Source: Candidatus Peregrinibacteria bacterium GW2011_GWF2_39_17 (GTDB lineage: Bacteria; Patescibacteriota; Gracilibacteria; UBA1369; UBA12473). From it: 64,000 bases of DNA. Both the position numbers and the translations under genes were made by a program. The DNA is taken from contig LBWM01000001.1 in the NCBI GenBank assembly GCA_000993615.1, forward strand, positions 149,970 through 213,969, in the 5' to 3' direction. Positions within the stretch are counted from its first letter, which is position 1. The number at the start of each line of letters is the position of its first letter. Of the stretch, positions 36,456 through 45,739 are shown piece after piece. Under the pieces are notes generated by a model, which searched no databases, was not told the DNA's origin, and worked only from the letters and a program-made list of their open reading frames with translations.

Positions 36456-37082
36456 TTAACTCGATCTTCCCTTTAAAACCGTAATTACTTCTTGAAATTT
36501 CACTCCTTTTTTTACTAAAAGCACCATCAAATGATATAGCAAATCCGCGCTTTCTTCGGCTAATCTTTGCTTGGTTTCTTTAGTCGCAGCCTTAATCACT
36601 TCTCCGCTTTCCTCCGAAATTTTAGTGCAAATTTTATAAATTCCTTCCTCGAAAAGACTAGTTGTATAAGAACCCTTAGGCATTTTTAGTTTGCGATCAT
36701 TGATTAGGTTAAAAAGTTTTTGCAAAAAATCCCCATTTTCTTTTGCAGGATTTTCATTTTGAAAGAACCTTTTAGTTACCGAGTCCCTAAAACAAGAATA
36801 TTCCCCTGTATGACAAGTCGGCCCTGCTGGCTGCGCTAAAATAAGAATCGCATCCTGATCACAATCCAGGTGAATTTCCATGACGCGTAAAACATTTTGA
36901 CTCGTTTCTCCTTTCATCCACAATCTTTTCTTACTTCGTGAATAAAACCACACTTGACCTGTCTGCTGGGTTTGCTCGTACGCTTCTTCGTTCATATAGC
37001 CCAGCATGAGAATTTCCAAACTGTTTATATTTTGGATAATAGCCGGGATCAATGGAGATTTCTTAAAGTTAGGCTTTAGCAT
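36456..37082 (-). CDS. hisIE: phosphoribosyl-AMP cyclohydrolase / phosphoribosyl-ATP pyrophosphatase
   Basis: A 208-aa bifunctional enzyme for steps two and three of histidine synthesis. The HisI half (1-118) shows LGYMNEEAY, the zinc- and metal-binding HLDCDQDA and GPTCHTGEYSCF cysteines. The HisE half (about 125-208) shows SYTTSLFEEG, KISEESGEVIKA and EESADLLYHL, an all-alpha MazG-like NTP pyrophosphatase fold. It ends the his operon, 11 bases after hisA::hisF. All expected metal ligands are present. Confidence 0.95.
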   Translation of the reverse strand: MLKPNFKKSPLIPAIIQNINSLEILMLGYMNEEAYEQTQQTGQVWFYSRSKKRLWMKGETSQNVLRVMEIHLDCDQDAILILAQPAGPTCHTGEYSCFRDSVTKRFFQNENPAKENGDFLQKLFNLINDRKLKMPKGSYTTSLFEEGIYKICTKISEESGEVIKAATKETKQRLAEESADLLYHLMVLLVKKGVKFQEVITVLKGRSS

Positions 37083-37093
37083 AAAAATTAAGA

Positions 37094-38542
37094 TTAAAGA
37101 CGCACATTCACTCTACGCTCATCTAAATAATGTTTCACATCCGCGACGTGGAATTTTCCAGAATGGAACACCGAAGCCGCTAAAACCGCATCCGCTCCGC
37201 CTTTTACGATGCCTTCATAAAAGTGTTCCAATTCACCTGCTCCGCTGGACGCAATTAGGGGAATCGTCAAAATATCGCTTGCGGCTCGCAATAATTCCAA
37301 ATCATACCCTTTTTCTTTTCCATCTTCATCAATGGAGTTGAGTAAAATTTCGCCAGCCCCTCTTGCCTGCATTTCTTTTAAAAATTCCCAAAGGTCTCGT
37401 CCCGTGTTTTCTCTGCCCCCTTTAATGATGACTTCCCATTTTAACTGTCCGAGTACGCGTTTAGGAGAAACAGAAATCACGATCGCTTGTGATCCAAAAT
37501 AACGAGACGCTTCAGAAATTAGTTCAGGGTTTAACACCGCTGCTGATTCGATGGAAATCTTATCCGCTCCGGCCCCTAACGCAGCTTGAATATCTTCCAT
37601 GGATTTAATTCCTCCCCCAATCGTAAAGGGGATAGAAATCGTTTGAGCCACGTGACGCGCTAAATCAGCGACCATGGCTCGTTTATCGGACGTAGCCGTG
37701 ATGTCCAGGAAAACCAATTCATCCGCTCCCTCTGCGTCATAACGTCGAGCCAACTCTACAGGATCACCCGCATCACAGAGATCCGTAAATTGAATGCCTT
37801 TGACCACACGTCCCTGATTAACATCAAGACAGGGAATGATGCGTTTAGCTAGATTTGACCCTTCGTAAAAAGCTTTCCCCATAACTGCAGAATGAACTCC
37901 AGCAGACTCGAGTTTTTTGCGGTCAGCGAAGGAACCCACTCCTCCGGCCGCAATCCAATCTATTTGCGGAAATTCCATAGCCAATTTTTTGTAAAGCGAA
38001 ACATCAGGTCCCTGCATCATGCCATCACATTCAATGGCTGTGCAAAGTATAGTATGTACGCCTATTTTCTGCATCTTACGTGTAAACTCAGGAGGAGTAA
38101 TTTTAATTCCTTCTTGCCACCCTGAAATCCAAATTGCTTGATCATCCCGGATATCCATGGAAACCACAATACGATTAGTTCCAAAACGGTGAATCGCTTC
38201 TTGAATCACTTCCGGAGCTTTGAGGGCTACGCTCCCCAAAATAACCCGTGCAACTCCCATCTGTAAAAAAATCGAAATGTCTTCTAAGCGACGGATTCCT
38301 CCTCCTACTTGAATGTTAAGTGTGGTTTGAGAAAGAATTTCTCGAATCGTTTGTTGATTTTTGCTTTTGCCTTCCCTGGCGCCATCTAAGTCGATGATGT
38401 GAAGCCATTCATAACCCATTTTTTGTAAACGCTTCGCCATGTCGATAGGCGTTTGGGGGTAGAAAGTCGCTTGGCCAAAGTCGCCCTTTTTTAGACGAAC
38501 GCAGCGACCTTCCATTAGATCAATAGCAGGAATAATGTTCAT
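37094..38542 (-). CDS. HisA::HisF fusion (ProFAR isomerase + imidazole glycerol phosphate synthase cyclase)
   Basis: A 482-aa protein made of two consecutive (beta/alpha)8 barrels. Residues 1-230 are HisA: IPAIDLMEGRCVRL with Asp8, GGGIR, and Asp130 in SMDIRDD. Residues 232-482 are HisF: RIIPCLDVNQGRVVKG with Asp240 (equivalent to Thermotoga maritima HisF Asp11), GGGIKSMED and NSIDEDG. The equivalent of HisF Asp130, an acid/base residue, is Ser359 (VISVSPKR), and Asn103 is Glu332. So the cyclase half is changed at a key position although the HisH glutaminase is intact and adjacent. The stop of hisH overlaps its start by 4 bp. Confidence 0.93.
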   Translation of the reverse strand: MNIIPAIDLMEGRCVRLKKGDFGQATFYPQTPIDMAKRLQKMGYEWLHIIDLDGAREGKSKNQQTIREILSQTTLNIQVGGGIRRLEDISIFLQMGVARVILGSVALKAPEVIQEAIHRFGTNRIVVSMDIRDDQAIWISGWQEGIKITPPEFTRKMQKIGVHTILCTAIECDGMMQGPDVSLYKKLAMEFPQIDWIAAGGVGSFADRKKLESAGVHSAVMGKAFYEGSNLAKRIIPCLDVNQGRVVKGIQFTDLCDAGDPVELARRYDAEGADELVFLDITATSDKRAMVADLARHVAQTISIPFTIGGGIKSMEDIQAALGAGADKISIESAAVLNPELISEASRYFGSQAIVISVSPKRVLGQLKWEVIIKGGRENTGRDLWEFLKEMQARGAGEILLNSIDEDGKEKGYDLELLRAASDILTIPLIASSGAGELEHFYEGIVKGGADAVLAASVFHSGKFHVADVKHYLDERRVNVRL

Positions 38543-39126
38543 AGTTGTAGAAAATTATTAAGAAGACGTAAGCCCACCTCACCCGATTTTTCAGGATGGA
38601 ATTGGACACCAAAAAAATTGTTTTTCTGAATTGCCGAAGAAAACGGAGTGTCATAAAACGTAATTCCACAGGTCTCTTCTATGATTGGCGCTGCAAAGGA
38701 ATGCACGAAGTAAAAATAGGATTCATCAGGGATTCCTTCAAATAGGGGATTTTTGCCTAAATACTTAACCGCATTCCATCCCATATGAGGGATCTTGAGA
38801 GGTTCGGACGTGAGGCGTTTGGTGCAGCCTTGTACTAACCCCAATCCTTCTGTTTCATTCTCTTCTGAACGCTCAAAAAGAAGTTGAAGGCCTAGGCAAA
38901 TTCCCAAAAAAGGGACGGTTAAATATTGCAAAGGATTAATAAATTCGCGTTCAATCAACGCCTTCATGGCTTGCCCCGCGGCGCCTTGGCCAGGGAAAAT
39001 AACTTTGTCGAATTGAAATAAATTTTCTGGAGATCGAATGATCTGAGGAGATTGGCCAATCCGCAATAAAGCATTCTTAACACTCATCACATTACCTCCG
39101 CCATAGTCAATGAGGGCAATCTTCAT
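38539..39126 (-). CDS. hisH: imidazole glycerol phosphate synthase glutaminase subunit
   Basis: A 195-aa class I glutamine amidotransferase. DYGGGNVMSVKNAL opens the protein, GICLGLQLLF carries the nucleophile Cys, and FHPEKSG gives His and Glu of the triad. It supplies ammonia to the HisF barrel. Start and stop each overlap neighbours by 4 bp (hisB and hisA::hisF), a translationally coupled block. Confidence 0.96.
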   Translation of the reverse strand: MKIALIDYGGGNVMSVKNALLRIGQSPQIIRSPENLFQFDKVIFPGQGAAGQAMKALIEREFINPLQYLTVPFLGICLGLQLLFERSEENETEGLGLVQGCTKRLTSEPLKIPHMGWNAVKYLGKNPLFEGIPDESYFYFVHSFAAPIIEETCGITFYDTPFSSAIQKNNFFGVQFHPEKSGEVGLRLLNNFLQL

Positions 39127-39725
39127 AATGAATTTTTAGTGGTTGGAAGTTGATTCCGAAGGCGAAGATCTTTTTCGCAGGCCAGACGGAGAGCCTTTGC
39201 ATACGCCTTAAACGCCGCTTCAATGCGATGATGTTCGTTATTCCCTGGATTAAGAAATTGAAGGTGTAAATTCATTCCCACGTTTTGGGCCATGGCTTCA
39301 AAAAAATGGCGTACCATTTCAGTGGAAAAATCATTCACTTTTTCACGAATAGGACAATAGTCCGTAGCAAAGGCATAGCGTCCTGAAAGATCCACAGCCG
39401 CCAGGCAAAGCACCTCATCCATGGGTAAAATGTGGAACCCATAGCGCCGAATTCCTTTTTTATTTCCCAATGCCTGTTTGAGAGCTTGCCCGAGTACAAT
39501 ACCCACATCCTCAATGAGGTGGTGGTCATCCATTTGAACATCGCCTGTAGCCTTGATCGTCAGGTCAATGAGGCTGTGCTTGGAAAATAATTCAAGCATG
39601 TGATTTAAAAAACCAAGAGGAGTTTGAATTTTATATTTTCCAATCCCATCAAGATTTAGAGATAAATTAATTTGTGTTTCTGTTGTAATACGTTGTAACG
39701 AAGTGGTGCGAGGAGTGATTTTCAT
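39123..39725 (-). CDS. hisB: imidazoleglycerol-phosphate dehydratase
   Basis: A 200-aa monofunctional dehydratase (step six or seven). The two metal-binding repeats are seen: LNHML, DDHHLIEDVG and NEHHRIEAAFKAYAKAL. The usual F-x-D-H-M-L in motif one is FLNHML here, Asp to Asn. The phosphatase that is fused in enterobacterial HisB is encoded separately 124 bases upstream. Length is normal for the monofunctional type. Confidence 0.96.
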   Translation of the reverse strand: MKITPRTTSLQRITTETQINLSLNLDGIGKYKIQTPLGFLNHMLELFSKHSLIDLTIKATGDVQMDDHHLIEDVGIVLGQALKQALGNKKGIRRYGFHILPMDEVLCLAAVDLSGRYAFATDYCPIREKVNDFSTEMVRHFFEAMAQNVGMNLHLQFLNPGNNEHHRIEAAFKAYAKALRLACEKDLRLRNQLPTTKNSL

Positions 39726-39787
39726 AAATTGAAGGTTAAGAAGTGATACGGGTAGAGTTAATTATTCATTTTTTGTTCACGATTCCA

Positions 39788-39843
39788 TCATGGTGAATAT
39801 GCTATGCTCCTCATGTGGACGGTGGCCCCCGGGAGGGCGGGTA
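39788..39843 (+). repeat. copy 2 of the GC-rich intergenic repeat
   Basis: CATGGTGA leads into ATATGCTATG (39797-39806), then GGTGG, CCCCC, GGGAGGGCGGG around 39821-39841. It lies in the gap between hisN and hisB and reads on the plus strand, against the operon. Confidence 0.6.
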
Positions 39844-39849
39844 CTGAAT

Positions 39850-40347
39850 TTAAGAAGAAATAAAGGACTTTAAAGATTCCAAATCAATGCCTTTATTGGT
39901 TTTTACTTTAAAAAAGCGAATATCTAGGTTTTGCGCAAATTGGCCATCAGTTTCTCGATCCCCTAGCATAAAAGAAGTTTCTCGATCAAGGTCAACAGTC
40001 GTTAGAAAATAATCTACTAAGCCAGTTTTTGGTTTTCGGCAATCGCAACCCCCTTCTTGTAAATGAGGACAGACAAAAACTCGTTCAAAATTAATTCCAT
40101 TTTCTTTAAAAATTTTTAGCATTTCCTCTTGTGGCTCAACAAAAGTAGCGGTGGGAAAGCAAGTTAAGCCCACTCCATTTTGATTGGTCACCATAACTAG
40201 TTTATATTTTTGATCGCGCAGCAGTTTTAACGATTCAATAACTCCGGGTAAAATCTTAAGTAAATCTAACCGATCCACCTGAAAAGTATCTTGTGGCTCT
40301 TCAATAAGAGCTCCGTCGCGGTCAATAAAGGCAATTTTAGTTTTCAT
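39850..40347 (-). CDS. histidinol-phosphatase, HAD (HisB-N type)
   Basis: A 165-aa HAD-superfamily phosphatase. IDRDGALIEEP holds the nucleophile and acid Asp, VTNQNGVG is motif II, and CPHLQEGGCDC is the Cys/His zinc loop of HisB-N/GmhB enzymes; GDRETDG gives motif IV. In a his operon histidinol phosphatase is the natural role. A GmhB activity is possible by homology, but a separate GmhB domain exists at 4194-4678. It starts 11 bases after hisC ends. Confidence 0.88.
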   Translation of the reverse strand: MKTKIAFIDRDGALIEEPQDTFQVDRLDLLKILPGVIESLKLLRDQKYKLVMVTNQNGVGLTCFPTATFVEPQEEMLKIFKENGINFERVFVCPHLQEGGCDCRKPKTGLVDYFLTTVDLDRETSFMLGDRETDGQFAQNLDIRFFKVKTNKGIDLESLKSFISS

Positions 40348-40358
40348 AGATTTTCTTA

Positions 40359-41408
40359 TTATAGAAATAATTGTTGATAAGTTTTAATAAATTGTTCCAT
40401 TTGGGAAACGGTTCCAATACTAAAACGAATCGTCCCTTCAATATTATGGCCACTTCGCGGCCTTGTTAAGATGCCATTAGAGTAAAGCTGTTCGTAAGTT
40501 TTATTTACATCATTGGGCCGAAATAAAATAAAATTGCCTTGGCTTGGGAAAAAATTAATTTTATTTTTGGAAAAAAATTGTTCAACCATGGGTTTGGCTT
40601 CGTTCATTACTTCATCAGCATAGCGATTAATCTCATCAATCTCTTCAAGCGCTGCTTGCGCTCCGCAGGCTCCAGCCTTATTTACATCATAAGGGCCGCG
40701 TACTTTAAGCATTTCCTCAATATTTGAAGCCGTGGCTACGACGTATCCAATCCGCAAAGAAGGAATACCGAATGCTTTTGAAAACGTACGCGTAATCATT
40801 AAATTTGGATAATCTTTCAAAAGGGGGATGGCGGTTGTTTTTGAAAACTCAAAATAAGCTTCATCTACATACACGACAGTGGAAGGGGCTTGTTTAAGAA
40901 TTATTTCAATTTGCTCTAAGGCGATCGGGGTTCCTGTTGGGTTATTGGGATTGCAAAGCACGAGGAGTTTAATGTTCCCTGTAGAAAGAAGGCTTTGAAT
41001 TTCCTCAAAGGGAAAGGTAAGGGTTTCGGAGTAAAAAGGGCGCAAAATTTTATTTTCCCTGAGCGCGGCACATTGCTCATACATCGCAAAACTGGGAGTG
41101 GGAATAATGACATTATCGCCTTTTTGCGTAAAGGTGCGAAAAATGAGGTCCATCCCTTGGTCAGAACCATTGGTGATTATGATTTGCTCCGGAGCAACGC
41201 TAGCGTAATTCGCAATTTGTTCGTTGAGGTTTTCGTATTCAGGATAAAGTTCCAGGTGGAAGGCTTTTAGGGCGTTTAGAACTTTTGGAGGAGGAGAAAT
41301 TGTGCGTTCATTGAAATCAAGTCTTAGCCCTGGGAAAGTGCTGCGATTATCTAAGGGGGGGCAATAGGCTTTCATTTTTTGAATATAGGAATTAGCTAGG
41401 TTATTCAT
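40359..41408 (-). CDS. hisC: histidinol-phosphate aminotransferase
   Basis: The 349-aa fold-type I PLP enzyme has the LDFNERTISPPP substrate segment, NGSDQGMDL, CNPNNPTGT, YVDEAYFEFS and the Schiff-base SKAFGIPSLRIGY. It converts imidazole acetol phosphate to histidinol phosphate. The 24-base block of repeat copy 3 lies directly upstream of its start, at the place where a leader and ribosome binding site would be. Confidence 0.95.
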   Translation of the reverse strand: MNNLANSYIQKMKAYCPPLDNRSTFPGLRLDFNERTISPPPKVLNALKAFHLELYPEYENLNEQIANYASVAPEQIIITNGSDQGMDLIFRTFTQKGDNVIIPTPSFAMYEQCAALRENKILRPFYSETLTFPFEEIQSLLSTGNIKLLVLCNPNNPTGTPIALEQIEIILKQAPSTVVYVDEAYFEFSKTTAIPLLKDYPNLMITRTFSKAFGIPSLRIGYVVATASNIEEMLKVRGPYDVNKAGACGAQAALEEIDEINRYADEVMNEAKPMVEQFFSKNKINFFPSQGNFILFRPNDVNKTYEQLYSNGILTRPRSGHNIEGTIRFSIGTVSQMEQFIKTYQQLFL

Positions 41409-41411
41409 AAA

Positions 41412-41490
41412 TTTTTAATAAATTTGAAAGGTTTTGGTCATGGAGGATATGCTATAAAGGGGGTGGATGGAGGCCCCCCGGGAGGGAGGG
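41412..41490 (+). repeat. copy 3 of the GC-rich intergenic repeat
   Basis: A 24-base block at 41412-41435 is identical to one in copy 4 at 56384-56407. It is followed by ATATGCTATA (41447-41456), then GGGGGTGG, CCCCCC and GGGAGGGAGGG up to about 41490. It fills the gap between hisD and hisC and reads against them. Confidence 0.7.
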
Positions 41491-41497
41491 AAAACGA

Positions 41498-42787
41498 TTA
41501 ATGCTGAGAAAAACGAATCGATACCGCTCGTGCATGCGCCCCCAGCCCTTCATAATTCGCCAATTGTTCGACAGTCTCTTTGAGAGCTTTAAGTCCGATT
41601 TGATTCACTCGTTGAATTTGCATCATTTTCCCAAACGCTTCCGTGGAGAGAGGAGGGAACATTTTCGCATAACCCGCCGTCGGAAGGGTGTGATTGCTTC
41701 CCGTGGCATAATCTCCCAAAGGTTCTGTGGAATATTTCCCGAGGAAAACAGATCCTGCGTTTTGGATACGCTTTAAAACGCTTCCTTCTCCATTTTTGAG
41801 CACAATTTCAAGGTGTTCAGGCGCGTATTCATTCACCAATTGAGTCGCCTCTTTTAAAGTGCGCACAACCACCACAAAACTTCTTGCGAAAGATTGTTGA
41901 ATAATCGTTTTTCGAGGAAGGGTTTTTATTTGGCGGAGAACCGCCTGTATGACGTTTTTGCCGAATTTAAAAGAAGGAGTAACTAGTAGTGCTTGAGAAT
42001 TTTCTCCATGTTCCATTTGCGACAAAAGATCAGCGGCAATCCAGTTTGGGTTTACAGATTCATCGGCAATCACGGCCACTTCAGAAGGTCCCGCCGGTTG
42101 ATCGATGGCCACTTGTCCAAAAACCATCATTTTTGCGGTCGTGACGTATTGATTTCCCGGGCCAAAAATTTTGTAGACCTGGGGGATCGTTTCCGTTCCA
42201 TACGCCATGGCTGCAATAGCTTGAGCGCCGCCCACTTTATAAATCATAGAAACTGCGCATAGATCCGCCGCCACTAAAACCCCGGGGTTGCATTGTCCTG
42301 CACGATTTGGAGGAGTGCAGAGAATGATTTGACGGCATCCTGCCACGCGAGCCGGAATAGCGTTCATCAAGACCGTCGAAGGATAAGAAGCGGTTCCTCC
42401 TGGGATATAAAGTCCCACTTTTTCAATGGGTCGAAATTCTCGCCAAACAGTCACTCCGCGGATCGTTTGGATCTCTTTACTTTTGCGTTCGATGTGGGTT
42501 TTATGGAATTTTTCAATGGCCTTCGCTGCCTTTTTTAGAGCCCGGATGACTTCCGGAGAAATTTCGCGGTACGCAGCACGAACTTCAGCCGGAGAGACTT
42601 TGAATGAATTCACCTCAGCGCCATCGTATTTTTTGGTGAATTCTTTTAAGGCCGCATCGCCTCGTTTTTGCACCGCATTCACGACGGGTTGCACGATGTT
42701 TAGAACATCGGATTCTTGACTACGTTTTCGGGCGATTTTTTGAAGAATAACCGGAAGTGAGAATTGAGCAGTGGTAAGGATTTTCAT
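41498..42787 (-). CDS. hisD: histidinol dehydrogenase
   Basis: The 429-aa product oxidises histidinol to histidine with two NAD+. It has the EFRPIEKVGLYIPGGTASYP segment, IFGPGNQYVTTAK, the IDQPAGPSEVAVIAD block, QMEHGENSQ with the zinc-binding Gln and His, and a C-terminal YEGLGAHARA. Length and motifs are complete. It begins four bases after hisG ends. Confidence 0.96.
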   Translation of the reverse strand: MKILTTAQFSLPVILQKIARKRSQESDVLNIVQPVVNAVQKRGDAALKEFTKKYDGAEVNSFKVSPAEVRAAYREISPEVIRALKKAAKAIEKFHKTHIERKSKEIQTIRGVTVWREFRPIEKVGLYIPGGTASYPSTVLMNAIPARVAGCRQIILCTPPNRAGQCNPGVLVAADLCAVSMIYKVGGAQAIAAMAYGTETIPQVYKIFGPGNQYVTTAKMMVFGQVAIDQPAGPSEVAVIADESVNPNWIAADLLSQMEHGENSQALLVTPSFKFGKNVIQAVLRQIKTLPRKTIIQQSFARSFVVVVRTLKEATQLVNEYAPEHLEIVLKNGEGSVLKRIQNAGSVFLGKYSTEPLGDYATGSNHTLPTAGYAKMFPPLSTEAFGKMMQIQRVNQIGLKALKETVEQLANYEGLGAHARAVSIRFSQH

Positions 42788-42791
42788 GGAC

Positions 42792-43397
42792 TTAGAGTAA
42801 AGATAGAAAAGAATCTTTTTGCAGTTTAGGGAAAGGGCTTTCCACTAAAATCGCCTCCGACTGAAGCAGCGACGTCAGTGGGACGAGTCCTTGTTCTCTC
42901 AACGTCGTGCCCGTTTGGGTTAAATCACAAATCGCATCCGCTAGATTTAAGCTAGGCGCAATTTCCACGGATCCTCGTAAGGTAATCACCGTGGCGCTGA
43001 TTTTATTTTGTCTAAGATAGCGCGTGAGCGTTTGAGGATAGGAAGTGGCAATACGCCCCCCTTCCAGATCGTTAGGCGTTTTAATGTTAGAGAGCTTAGG
43101 AATGGCAATCACCAGAAAACATGTGCCAAATCCTAATTTTTGGACAACCTTTAATTCGTTCTCTTTTTCAGCTAAAATATTTTCTCCCACGATGCCGAAA
43201 TCAGCAACACCTCGGCCAACATACTCTGGAATATCCTCATTACGTAAAAACAGGATCGTTAAATCAAAATTCGTGCAGGAGATAAAGAGGCTCTTTTCGC
43301 GCACCGTGAATTTCAATCGAAGGGATCGAAGAAATTTAAGGCTGTCATCTTTGAGGCGACCTTTACTTTGAATCGCAATTTTTAAATTATTTTTCAT
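42792..43397 (-). CDS. hisG: ATP phosphoribosyltransferase, short form
   Basis: A 201-aa catalytic subunit of the short-form (HisG-S) type: IAIQSKGRLKDDSL, DFGIVGENIL and GSVEIAPSLNLADAICDLTQTG, the PRPP-binding loop. It lacks the C-terminal ACT-like regulatory domain of long HisG, so by family rule it should need HisZ, a HisRS-like regulatory subunit. No separate hisZ was seen here. The overlap of four bases with the full-length hisS gene suggests that the synthetase protein may serve, or that HisZ is encoded elsewhere. Confidence 0.93.
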   Translation of the reverse strand: MKNNLKIAIQSKGRLKDDSLKFLRSLRLKFTVREKSLFISCTNFDLTILFLRNEDIPEYVGRGVADFGIVGENILAEKENELKVVQKLGFGTCFLVIAIPKLSNIKTPNDLEGGRIATSYPQTLTRYLRQNKISATVITLRGSVEIAPSLNLADAICDLTQTGTTLREQGLVPLTSLLQSEAILVESPFPKLQKDSFLSLL

Positions 43398-44683
43398 GAG
43401 AAAACGTAGCCATTAAAATAAGACGTGAGTTGGGTTTGAGGAATGGTTTTTTGTTTTCCTGTTTTGAGAATCTTAATGGTGACTTCTTCTTTTTTTATCT
43501 CATCCGGTCCACAAATCACCACAAAGGGAATTTCTTTTTTGTCGGCATATTTAATTTGTTTGCTTAATTTTTCGGGCTCGAAATAAATTTCGGCATTGAT
43601 GGCTTCTTTTTGGAGATTAGTGAGAATTTTGAAAGCGTTGGGAAGAGTGGCTTCATCAAAGTAAGTCACTAAAACTTGAGCATTTAAACGAATCTCATTT
43701 AATAAGTTGAGTTGTTCCATGGCCACCATGATGCGATCAAAACCAAAGGCCACACCCACGCCACTGAATTTTTCCTTACAAAAAAGTCCACACAGGTCGT
43801 CATACCGACCTCCTGCACACACGGCCCCAATAGCTACGTCAGGCAAAAATACTTCATACGTAATCCCCGTATAGTAATCCAACCCTCGGGATAAGCTCAT
43901 GTCAAATTCAAGAAATTTTTCATCCAGGCCAAATTCTTGGCAAAGTCTAAAAAAATCTTCAATTTCTTGAGTAGAATAGCTCTTAAGAGAAGCAATTTTT
44001 TGAGTGATACTCCCTTTAAAAAAGAGGACTTTAAGCAAAGGGGGAATGGTTTTTAGGGGTAAAATTTCTTTAAGGCCAGCCGTTACGCCTTCTTCTCCGA
44101 TTCTATCTATTTTGTCGAGCATCCGAATCACCTCAATTTGTTTTTCTGGAGGCACATTAAAGCGCCCTAAAATGCTGTTCATGAGGCGGCGGCTGTTGAA
44201 TTTAATCACAAAACGTTCAAAGCCTAGCGTTTGAAAAACATCCGCCATGACTCGCGCAATCTCCGCCTCTGCCACCAAGCTCTGAGTACCAATGACATCG
44301 ATGTCACATTGATAAAACTCGCGATAACGCCCCTTCGCGGGTTTATCGGCACGCCACACGCGTGAGATTTGATATCGCTTAAAGGGCATGGGTAAATTCT
44401 GATAATTGGAAGCCACAAGACGGGCAAAGGGGACCGTTTGATCGTAACGCAAAGCGATTTCTCGGCCGCCGTTGTCTTTGAATTGATAAACGAGTTTATT
44501 GTCTTCGCCGTATTTCCCTAGCAACGTTTTGGCGTATTCAATGACTGGGGTTTCGATGGTGTCGTAGCCAAATCGTTCAAAGACTGTTTTGATTTTTTGC
44601 ATGACCGTTTGGCGTTTTGCCATATCTTTGGGTAGAAAGTCGCGGGTGCCTTTGAGAATTTCAGGAGTGATGTAGGATGACAT
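43394..44683 (-). CDS. hisS: histidyl-tRNA synthetase
   Basis: The 429-aa class II synthetase has motif 2 RYQISRVWRADKPAKGRYREFYQCD, the histidine-specific block LSRGLDYYTGITYEV, motif 3 GVGVAFGFDRI and a C-terminal anticodon-binding domain (about 335-429). Presence of the anticodon domain and of the conserved Arg/Tyr residues argues for a true HisRS rather than HisZ, which normally lacks that domain. It is the first gene of the his operon and overlaps hisG by four bases. A dual role as HisZ is possible and only testable. Confidence 0.9.
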   Translation of the reverse strand: MSSYITPEILKGTRDFLPKDMAKRQTVMQKIKTVFERFGYDTIETPVIEYAKTLLGKYGEDNKLVYQFKDNGGREIALRYDQTVPFARLVASNYQNLPMPFKRYQISRVWRADKPAKGRYREFYQCDIDVIGTQSLVAEAEIARVMADVFQTLGFERFVIKFNSRRLMNSILGRFNVPPEKQIEVIRMLDKIDRIGEEGVTAGLKEILPLKTIPPLLKVLFFKGSITQKIASLKSYSTQEIEDFFRLCQEFGLDEKFLEFDMSLSRGLDYYTGITYEVFLPDVAIGAVCAGGRYDDLCGLFCKEKFSGVGVAFGFDRIMVAMEQLNLLNEIRLNAQVLVTYFDEATLPNAFKILTNLQKEAINAEIYFEPEKLSKQIKYADKKEIPFVVICGPDEIKKEEVTIKILKTGKQKTIPQTQLTSYFNGYVFS

Positions 44684-44710
44684 AGAATTCAGAAGTTATT
44701 AGGCGATATA

Positions 44711-44740
44711 ATAATGTGATAATACGTTGATACAAAATGC
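44711..44740 (-). promoter_or_regulatory. his operon promoter with operator
   Basis: On the minus strand TTGTAT (44735-44730) and TATTAT (44713-44708) are separated by 16 bases. The spacer and flank carry an imperfect inverted repeat AATGTG-ATAA-TACGTT (44713-44728) which matches the perfect copy in front of the TrpR-like gene. The transcript would begin near 44701, about 18 bases before hisS. Confidence 0.65.
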
Positions 44741-44743
44741 AAG

Positions 44744-44772
44744 TATAAAAAATCTCGCTGATTGGCGCGAGA
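44744..44772 (-). terminator. rho-independent terminator of the TrpR-like gene
   Basis: On the minus strand TCTCGC (44772-44767), an eight-base loop and GCGAGA (44758-44753) form a stem followed by a T-run (44752-44747). It lies between the TrpR-like stop and the his promoter, so the two transcription units are separate. Confidence 0.7.
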
Positions 44773-44795
44773 GGGGAGGCTATCGAGATGCTTTT

Positions 44796-45083
44796 TTAGC
44801 GACTCAGGCGTTTGAGCATCAGGGCATAGCCTCCCATGCCGTAATGCAGCCAATGAGCCACTCGGGTTACAGTAGCGGTGCTAGCGCCTGTTTTTTCGCT
44901 GATAAGGCGGTATGGAATATTTTTATTGACCTGCTTCGCTACTTCCCAGCGCTCACTCATGGCTTTAAGTTCAGAAAGGGTACATAGATCACGGAAAAAG
45001 CGCTCACATTCTTCTGTGGTTTTAAGCTTGAGGATGGCTTGATAGAGGTTGCGAATTTGAAGAGGCAGGATTTCTTTTTGCAT
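44796..45083 (-). CDS. TrpR/YerC-family regulator, probable histidine repressor
   Basis: A 95-aa all-helical protein with the TrpR-like fold: CERFFRDLCTLSELKAMSERWEVAKQVN then a helix-turn-helix IPYRLISEKTGASTATVTRVAHWL. This is the YerC/YecD branch, some of which were proposed by comparative genomics to regulate histidine genes. It directly precedes the his operon with its own terminator and promoter, and both promoters share the palindromic operator, so autoregulation and control of hisSGDCNBH(AF)IE are likely. The corepressor is not shown by sequence; histidine is inferred. Confidence 0.85.
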   Translation of the reverse strand: MQKEILPLQIRNLYQAILKLKTTEECERFFRDLCTLSELKAMSERWEVAKQVNKNIPYRLISEKTGASTATVTRVAHWLHYGMGGYALMLKRLSR

Positions 45084-45091
45084 GGGGAATA

Positions 45092-45119
45092 TATATAATG
45101 TGATAACACATTAATACAA
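45092..45119 (-). promoter_or_regulatory. promoter and perfect operator of the TrpR-like regulator
   Basis: TTGTAT (45119-45114) and TATATA (45097-45092) are 16 bases apart. Exactly between them is the perfect palindrome AATGTGATAACACATT (45097-45112; arms AATGTG/CACATT). A bound repressor would block polymerase. Transcription would begin near 45085, one or two bases before the ATG at 45083, so a leaderless mRNA is likely. Confidence 0.68.
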
Positions 45120-45172
45120 AAGACTATATTTTGTCAAGAAAAATAATTGCTTTTGCTACTGTCTTAGGAAAA

Positions 45173-45739
45173 TTAGGTGGTGGTTGTGGCCGGTTCTACC
45201 GTTTTTTCTACGTCAAAAGTGGAAACTACGGCTTGAGCTTCTGCGACACATTGATCGGGATCCTTAGTTGGCATGCGTACTTCAAAAATATAGGGAAAAT
45301 CCTCAACCTCATAACCCACCACGTGCAACAACTGGATTCCAATGGGGTTAAAAACATCTAAAGTGCGAGCTGAATAACGAGTTGTGACGAGCGAACCTTC
45401 GATAACCTGGTTTCCCTCACTTCTGCCCAAACCAGTTGTTCCAGGTAAAATTACGCATTGTCCTTCCGGGTAGTTTTTATTAACCAAGGCAAGCCTATTA
45501 GGAGCATCTGTAATATCCCATTCCTGTAAGTCCCATTTACTAAGTTCGTAATTAAAGGTAAAATATTTACTCTTTAAATCAAAAGTTTTCATGGTAATGA
45601 CCTCAAAATTAGGGTCTGTTGGATCCTTAGAGGTTTGATAATTTTTAGTTTTTCCGATACACCCGATACTGGAAATTATTAAAAAAAGCTCTAAAAGTAT
45701 GACCAAAAAGTAATTAACTTTAAACATTTTTTTAAGCAT
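45173..45739 (-). CDS. putative lipoprotein
   Basis: A 188-aa protein with a signal peptide and lipobox ISSIGC, cleaving before Cys27. The mature part, from about residue 50, has KYFTFNYELSKWDLQEW and a Thr-rich end (TVEPATTTT), a layout seen in small PsbP-like or unknown lipoproteins. No family is recognised. No operon partner is obvious; the neighbours are a methyltransferase gene (39 bases downstream) and the regulator upstream. Confidence 0.65.
   Translation of the reverse strand: MLKKMFKVNYFLVILLELFLIISSIGCIGKTKNYQTSKDPTDPNFEVITMKTFDLKSKYFTFNYELSKWDLQEWDITDAPNRLALVNKNYPEGQCVILPGTTGLGRSEGNQVIEGSLVTTRYSARTLDVFNPIGIQLLHVVGYEVEDFPYIFEVRMPTKDPDQCVAEAQAVVSTFDVEKTVEPATTTT

Follow-up and report, generated by a model that had tools for sequence, protein, structure and literature searches.

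HisR (YerC) regulons are known in Firmicutes, Proteobacteria, Actinobacteria, and Synergistetes, and HisR autoregulation, operons that begin with hisR, and binding that depends on histidine have all been described, histidine having been demonstrated as the co-repressor for the HisR of R. gnavus (PMC9413887). A related arrangement is the trpRBA operon of Chlamydia, in which a TrpR-family repressor gene stands first and controls the major promoter, and in which an attenuator and an alternative, operator-bearing promoter were reported between the repressor and the biosynthetic genes (PMC3937554; PMC7755916). The classical his and trp leader-peptide attenuators, represented for histidine by His_leader (RF00514), place His codons beside mutually exclusive hairpins and a terminator ahead of the his genes.

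Here, we analyzed a stretch of 64,000 nucleotides (the window) from the uncultured Candidatus Peregrinibacteria bacterium GW2011_GWF2_39_17, in which a hisR gene precedes a his operon (table 1). The locus shares with the described HisR regulons a TrpR-family HisR and a palindrome of about 20 bp before the his genes and often before hisR; it differs in its operator, which is TGTTTTAACnnGTTAAAACA rather than cacTTTAnnnnnnTAAAgtg or TGTAnTArnnnnyTnTTACA, and in its host, because the phyla listed for the known regulons do not include the present candidate phyla; moreover, no attenuator behind hisR is described in the accessible part of that study (PMC9413887). The likeness to Chlamydia trpRBA lies in the repressor-first order, the attenuator, and the additional promoter; unlike the window, the Chlamydia operon concerns tryptophan, its proposed leader peptide has an ORF of its own, and the protein that binds its second operator is the iron regulator YtgR (PMC3937554; PMC7755916). 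In the open-access literature, we found no paper on candidate-phyla his operons or their attenuation, and no description of a repressor gene that serves as its own attenuation leader.

Table 1. Features of the hisR-his Region (Positions in the Window)
Feature	Position	Strand	Basis or comment
Predicted operator O1 before hisR, 16-mer AATGTGATAACACATT	45097..45112	.	Best 20-bp order-motif match at 45099-45118
Predicted operator O2 before hisS, AATGTGATAATACGTT	44713..44728	.	Best 20-bp order-motif match at 44715-44734
Likely -35 of hisR, TTGACA	45132..45137	-	Read off the sequence; relatives share the layout
Likely -10 of hisR, TAATGT, overlapping O1	45108..45113	-	Inferred; compare L005, L022
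Originally predicted hisS promoter TTGTAT-16-TATTAT, plausible	44708..44735	-	Read off the sequence
hisR, 95-aa HisR/YerC-type TrpR-family regulator	44796..45083	-	TIGR02531, 98.7 bits; PF01371, 91.2 bits
hisR codons H-W-L-H (His77, His80), sole His codons of the window hisR	44844..44855	-	Beside the 5' RNA arm
RNA stem 5' arm inside hisR, GGGAGGCTAT, codons around Gly-Gly-Tyr	44826..44835	-	Pairing tests, p 0.010
RNA stem 3' arm, past the hisR stop codon, ATAGCCTCCC	44774..44783	-	Pairing tests
Intrinsic terminator after hisR	44747..44772	-	Stem 44772-44753 plus T-run; TCTCGC-loop-GCGAGA-TTTTTT
hisS, 3' of hisR	43394..44683	-	TIGR00442
hisG, hisD, hisC, HAD phosphatase, hisB, hisH, hisA-hisF fusion, hisIE	36456..43397	-	Family matches

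The hisR Gene and the his Operon

The score of the window protein on TIGR02531 lies far above the curated cut-off of 42.2 bits, which places it in the HisR/YerC-YecD family; the closest solved structures are 3frw, 3g1c, and 3kor. The window belongs to a candidate-phyla (Patescibacteria) lineage, the named relatives matched by its HisR being Peregrinibacteria, Peribacteria, and Gracilibacteria; in-frame TGA was seen in some members of the class. Identity as a true TrpR was rejected, both by the TrpR model (28.4 against a cut-off of 67.25) and by the existence of a separate TrpR-family paralog before trpE. This second paralog (L033, G000:C6:30108-30356 on the minus strand), which is preceded by a GTACTAGTAC-type site and whose counterparts in relatives (L030-L032) are located before trpE, is apparently the true TrpR, and the two TrpR-family regulators of the genome appear to be kept apart by operator.

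In the window, hisR is followed by a complete operon in the order hisS-G-D-C-(HAD)-B-H-AF-IE, and a his operon also adjoins hisR in about 10 relatives of the same order. HisA and HisF form one fused protein of 482 aa in the window (37094-38542, minus strand) with two PF00977 stretches; a continuous HisA-HisF match was likewise observed in six relatives (G001, G020, G022, G040, G042, and G058), and the two are separate neighboring genes in G039. On the 5' side of hisR lies an ORF of 188 aa (45173-45739, minus strand) with a lipoprotein-like start, for which no Pfam or NCBIfam match was found.

Operators and Promoters

The palindrome pair proposed in the original prediction was recovered as described, with the arms of O1 matching at 6/6 positions and those of O2 at 4/6, and with two mismatches between the two sites; the 16-base spacing of TTGTAT/TATATA and TTGTAT/TATTAT was likewise confirmed. 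When the 1.31-Mb genome was searched for the 16-mer, O1 and O2 were the sole places found with two mismatches or fewer. The strict order-type pattern YGTNTTAWYACRTTA occurred without mismatch, genome-wide, at the hisR and hisS promoters only; its 1-mismatch matches did not exceed the frequency of a reversed-pattern control, and no further HisR targets in the genome are claimed.

When the regions before hisR in the order were searched for motifs, the 20-bp palindrome TGTTTTAACnnGTTAAAACA was recovered from about 20 of 27 genomes, mostly within about 40 bp of the start codon. This operator type is present in relatives with the same gene pair, and the absence that would have counted against the original prediction was not observed. 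The same matrix also recovered sites in other candidate phyla (24.8 in a member of Magasanikbacteria and 24.4 in one of Doudnabacteria) and in a Mycobacteriales MAG (26.4). A conserved palindromic operator of about 20 bp is thus found at the his and/or hisR promoters, with a consensus unlike the published HisR ones. The sites can often be read as 8-bp steps (YGTnTTAA), a layout that recalls the tandem arrangement of the E. coli trp operator. In one family (f33; L077, L085-L090), hisR carries a Firmicutes-like CTTTAnnnnnnTAAAG palindrome replacing the TGTTTTAAC type, and these loci combine an HHH tail of HisR with a strong tail-leader stem.

In the relatives, the operator overlaps the -10 of a TTGACA promoter or comes directly after it, and TTGTAT is therefore doubtful as the -35 of hisR; it agrees with TTGACA at just 3/6 positions, and a perfect TTGACA (45137-45132) stands 18 nt before TAATGT (45113-45108). 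Thus, the original placement of the operator between -35 and -10 probably does not hold for hisR, where O1 overlaps the likely -10, but is possible for hisS. The order-motif matrix scored O1 at 19.1 and O2 at 12.9, and a tighter control of hisR than of hisS, as had been proposed, would fit these scores. Taken together, the family match, the his operon, the presence of an operator at each of the two promoters, and the recurrence of this operator type in relatives support the predicted self-regulated system of the HisR type.

It is very improbable that HisR regulates another amino acid or anything else besides histidine, or that the sites arose by chance. Binding and effector in the window are predictions, HisR paralogs of other function are known, and in several relatives hisR stands before genes with no clear histidine link; against this reading are the full his operon 3' of hisR in the window and several relatives, the His codon pattern of hisR described below, the presence of just two strict sites in the genome, and the conservation of the motif across phyla.

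The Terminator between hisR and the his Genes

The regulator's own terminator, as originally predicted, is present, but its role as an insulator is questioned by most relatives with the gene pair, in which no promoter lies behind it. In all six inspected hisR-his relatives whose hisR carries the operator (G001, G005, G020, G040, G042, and G058), hisR is followed by a terminator with no second operator behind it, no promoter was recognized in the sequence between the terminator and the his genes, and the distance from the T-run to the next gene is typically just 20-30 nt. Therefore, in most hisR-his relatives the his genes need readthrough, barring a promoter hidden in hisR. In G016, G022, and G039, the his genes have their own operator and the tail-leader stem described below is absent. 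Across the named genome set, a terminator lies directly 3' of hisR in most HHG-type candidate-phyla loci, compared with about 2 of about 40 others.

These observations bear on plain HisR autoregulation, by which hisR would be a closed unit with an ordinary terminator, hisS would have its own HisR-controlled promoter, the tail hairpin would aid termination or the mRNA 3' end, and the His-rich motif would serve the protein. The window taken alone agrees with this, because hisS has its own operator and the terminator is predicted to form in all ribosome states; the six relatives lacking a second operator past the terminator do not, and with the evidence below we regard plain autoregulation as unlikely.

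Behind the hisR-terminator unit, where no his operon adjoins, radical-SAM-like genes were often observed, as judged by their sequences (L055, L054, L046, L101, L090, L080, and L084). Genes resembling a HisG paralog, an aminotransferase, a D-Ala-D-Ala dipeptidase, an M14 protein, or an acyltransferase, likewise judged by their sequences, occupied the same position in L057, L081, L052, L095, L088, L047, and L091.

Predicted Pairing of the hisR Tail with the Leader

In most hisR-his relatives, the 3' codons of hisR around G-x-G-G-Y, within the last approximately 20 codons, are able to pair with the leader past the stop codon. Since arms and spacers were too divergent for alignment-based covariation, swap and synonymous-codon tests were chosen. 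Duplexes with swapped or shuffled tails and leaders were weaker than the native pairs. In the synonymous randomization, the last 20 hisR codons were recoded and pairing was scored with the next 60 nt; recoding weakened the pairing (combined p 4e-20 for 33 His-cluster loci, 0.54 for an upstream control segment, and 0.010 for the window, most p-values being computed ignoring the relatedness of the loci). Independent pairs taken from a tree pointed in the right direction, approximately 3 to 0, which are too few pairs for significance. The synonymous-codon tests show that selection acts on the pairing of the hisR tail with the leader.

Thermodynamic folding, on mostly metagenome-assembled sequence, placed the stem on the 5' arm of the terminator in many relatives. 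Among several candidate phyla, about 15 genomes (L040, L054, L058, L085, L089, L091, L094, L095, L097, L116, L124, L126, L137, L145, and L184) had a predicted terminator probability of 0.00-0.36 when the ribosome stood at the first His codon and the tail was free, versus 0.6-1.0 when it stood at the stop codon; in L110, this probability rose from 0.4 to 0.97 across the same states. Such an antiterminator was absent from about 10 other stem-bearing loci. In the class set, native tails excluded the terminator better than their synonymous versions (combined p 4.7e-9), and this excess is not what plain autoregulation would lead one to expect. The window itself showed a terminator probability of 1.00 in every ribosome state, and its stem and terminator do not overlap; no antiterminator is thus predicted there. 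Folding with the ribosome at different positions revealed no classical 2:3 antiterminator, and Rfam covariance models gave no match at the locus to His_leader RF00514, T-box RF00230, or other Rfam families.

The tail-leader stem could instead belong to another RNA-based control, such as RNase III processing or a protein-binding RNA, that tunes hisR against his mRNA. A number of stems are long and can coexist with the terminator (L035, L046, L053, L093, and the window), and the position of the HH pair, considered below, misfits a simple stalling model; yet attenuation sensed by translation specifically predicts both the overlap with the terminator arm that is seen in many genomes and a HisR core from which His is excluded, and we consider such other control improbable.

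Histidine Codons in hisR

In the relatives, His clusters lie beside the switch in several forms, including HWLHHG, the tails RFHHHN, HHHH, and AHHHTNT, and LNAHRHHR. A 68-residue HisR core is free of His in 57/60 His-cluster proteins versus 27/58 other HisRs (p 2e-9, without phylogenetic correction), and the three exceptions with a core His are from Acidobacteria or Chloroflexi without the terminator. The window HisR also has a His-free core, with the motif HWLHYG. Where the core is free of His, a ribosome meets the first His codon of the message at the switch, as a histidine attenuator would require. Plain autoregulation leaves the His-free core and the terminal cluster unexplained.

Relatives thus carry candidate regulatory His codons at the switch, the geometry of the HH pair being unexplained: if the ribosome stalled on the HH pair of an HWLHHG-type attenuator, it would mask the arm, and the simple model fits the first His only. 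In addition, HWLxHG is common in HisR proteins with no terminator behind their genes, as plain autoregulation would allow; since it is present in terminator-less Actinobacteria, the motif partly reflects protein conservation. In one locus whose HisR has no cluster (L100, in G233), a separate small ORF, MKIWIYLNQWHHHSFGASRECFFEH, was observed after the hisR stop codon and just before a terminator-like site; it is possibly a classical his leader ORF.

A Repressor Gene as a Putative Attenuation Leader

The explanation that we prefer, and hold to be probable as a whole, is HisR repression combined with an attenuator in the hisR tail of the relatives, of which the window is a variant. It joins computed elements (the family, the operators, the conserved layout, the selection on tail-leader pairing, and the predicted switches in relatives) to steps that we infer, namely DNA binding, histidine as the effector, ribosome stalling, and antitermination. 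HisR, probably histidine-bound, would repress its own promoter via O1. In most hisR-his relatives, the hisR promoter would be the only one, and the his operon would be reached through the terminator behind hisR. The 3' end of hisR would pair with the leader past the stop codon and in many genomes would capture the 5' arm of the terminator, acting as an antiterminator. A ribosome that completes hisR would cover the tail arm and let the terminator form, whereas one held up by starvation at the first His codon beside the arm would leave the arm free, and transcription would go on. In this way, one gene would serve both as the repressor gene and as the leader of the his attenuator. Compared with the his and trp leader-peptide attenuators, the leader here would be the 3' end of a repressor gene, the antiterminator arm would lie within that coding sequence, and readthrough is often predicted for the untranslated RNA.

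In the window genome, HisR would also repress a second promoter before hisS via O2, and the locus would have shifted from attenuation to pure repression. It differs from the relatives in the change from HHG to HYG, in a stem that lies off the terminator, and in the extra operator and promoter for hisS; the second operator is absent in G001, a relative from the same family. On this reading, the window would be a degraded variant, with attenuation superseded by a second promoter under HisR control; alternatively, its stem may never have switched.

We propose, with somewhat less assurance than the explanation as a whole, that hisR of several candidate phyla is at once repressor and attenuator leader, with His only beside the 3'-end arm, so that one gene of about 95 codons would sense histidine by way of its protein and charged tRNA-His by way of its translation, and that the window represents a loss step in which a second operator replaced attenuation. 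HisR repression is already known; the attenuator layer within hisR would be the new element. If true, HisR regulation would be extended to candidate-phyla bacteria, silent changes in hisR codons would alter his expression, and the hisR-terminator unit would offer a handle on unknown operons, such as those with radical-SAM genes, where no his operon adjoins. Above the known repression, it would add an attenuator with the regulator gene itself as leader, a compact arrangement for small genomes.
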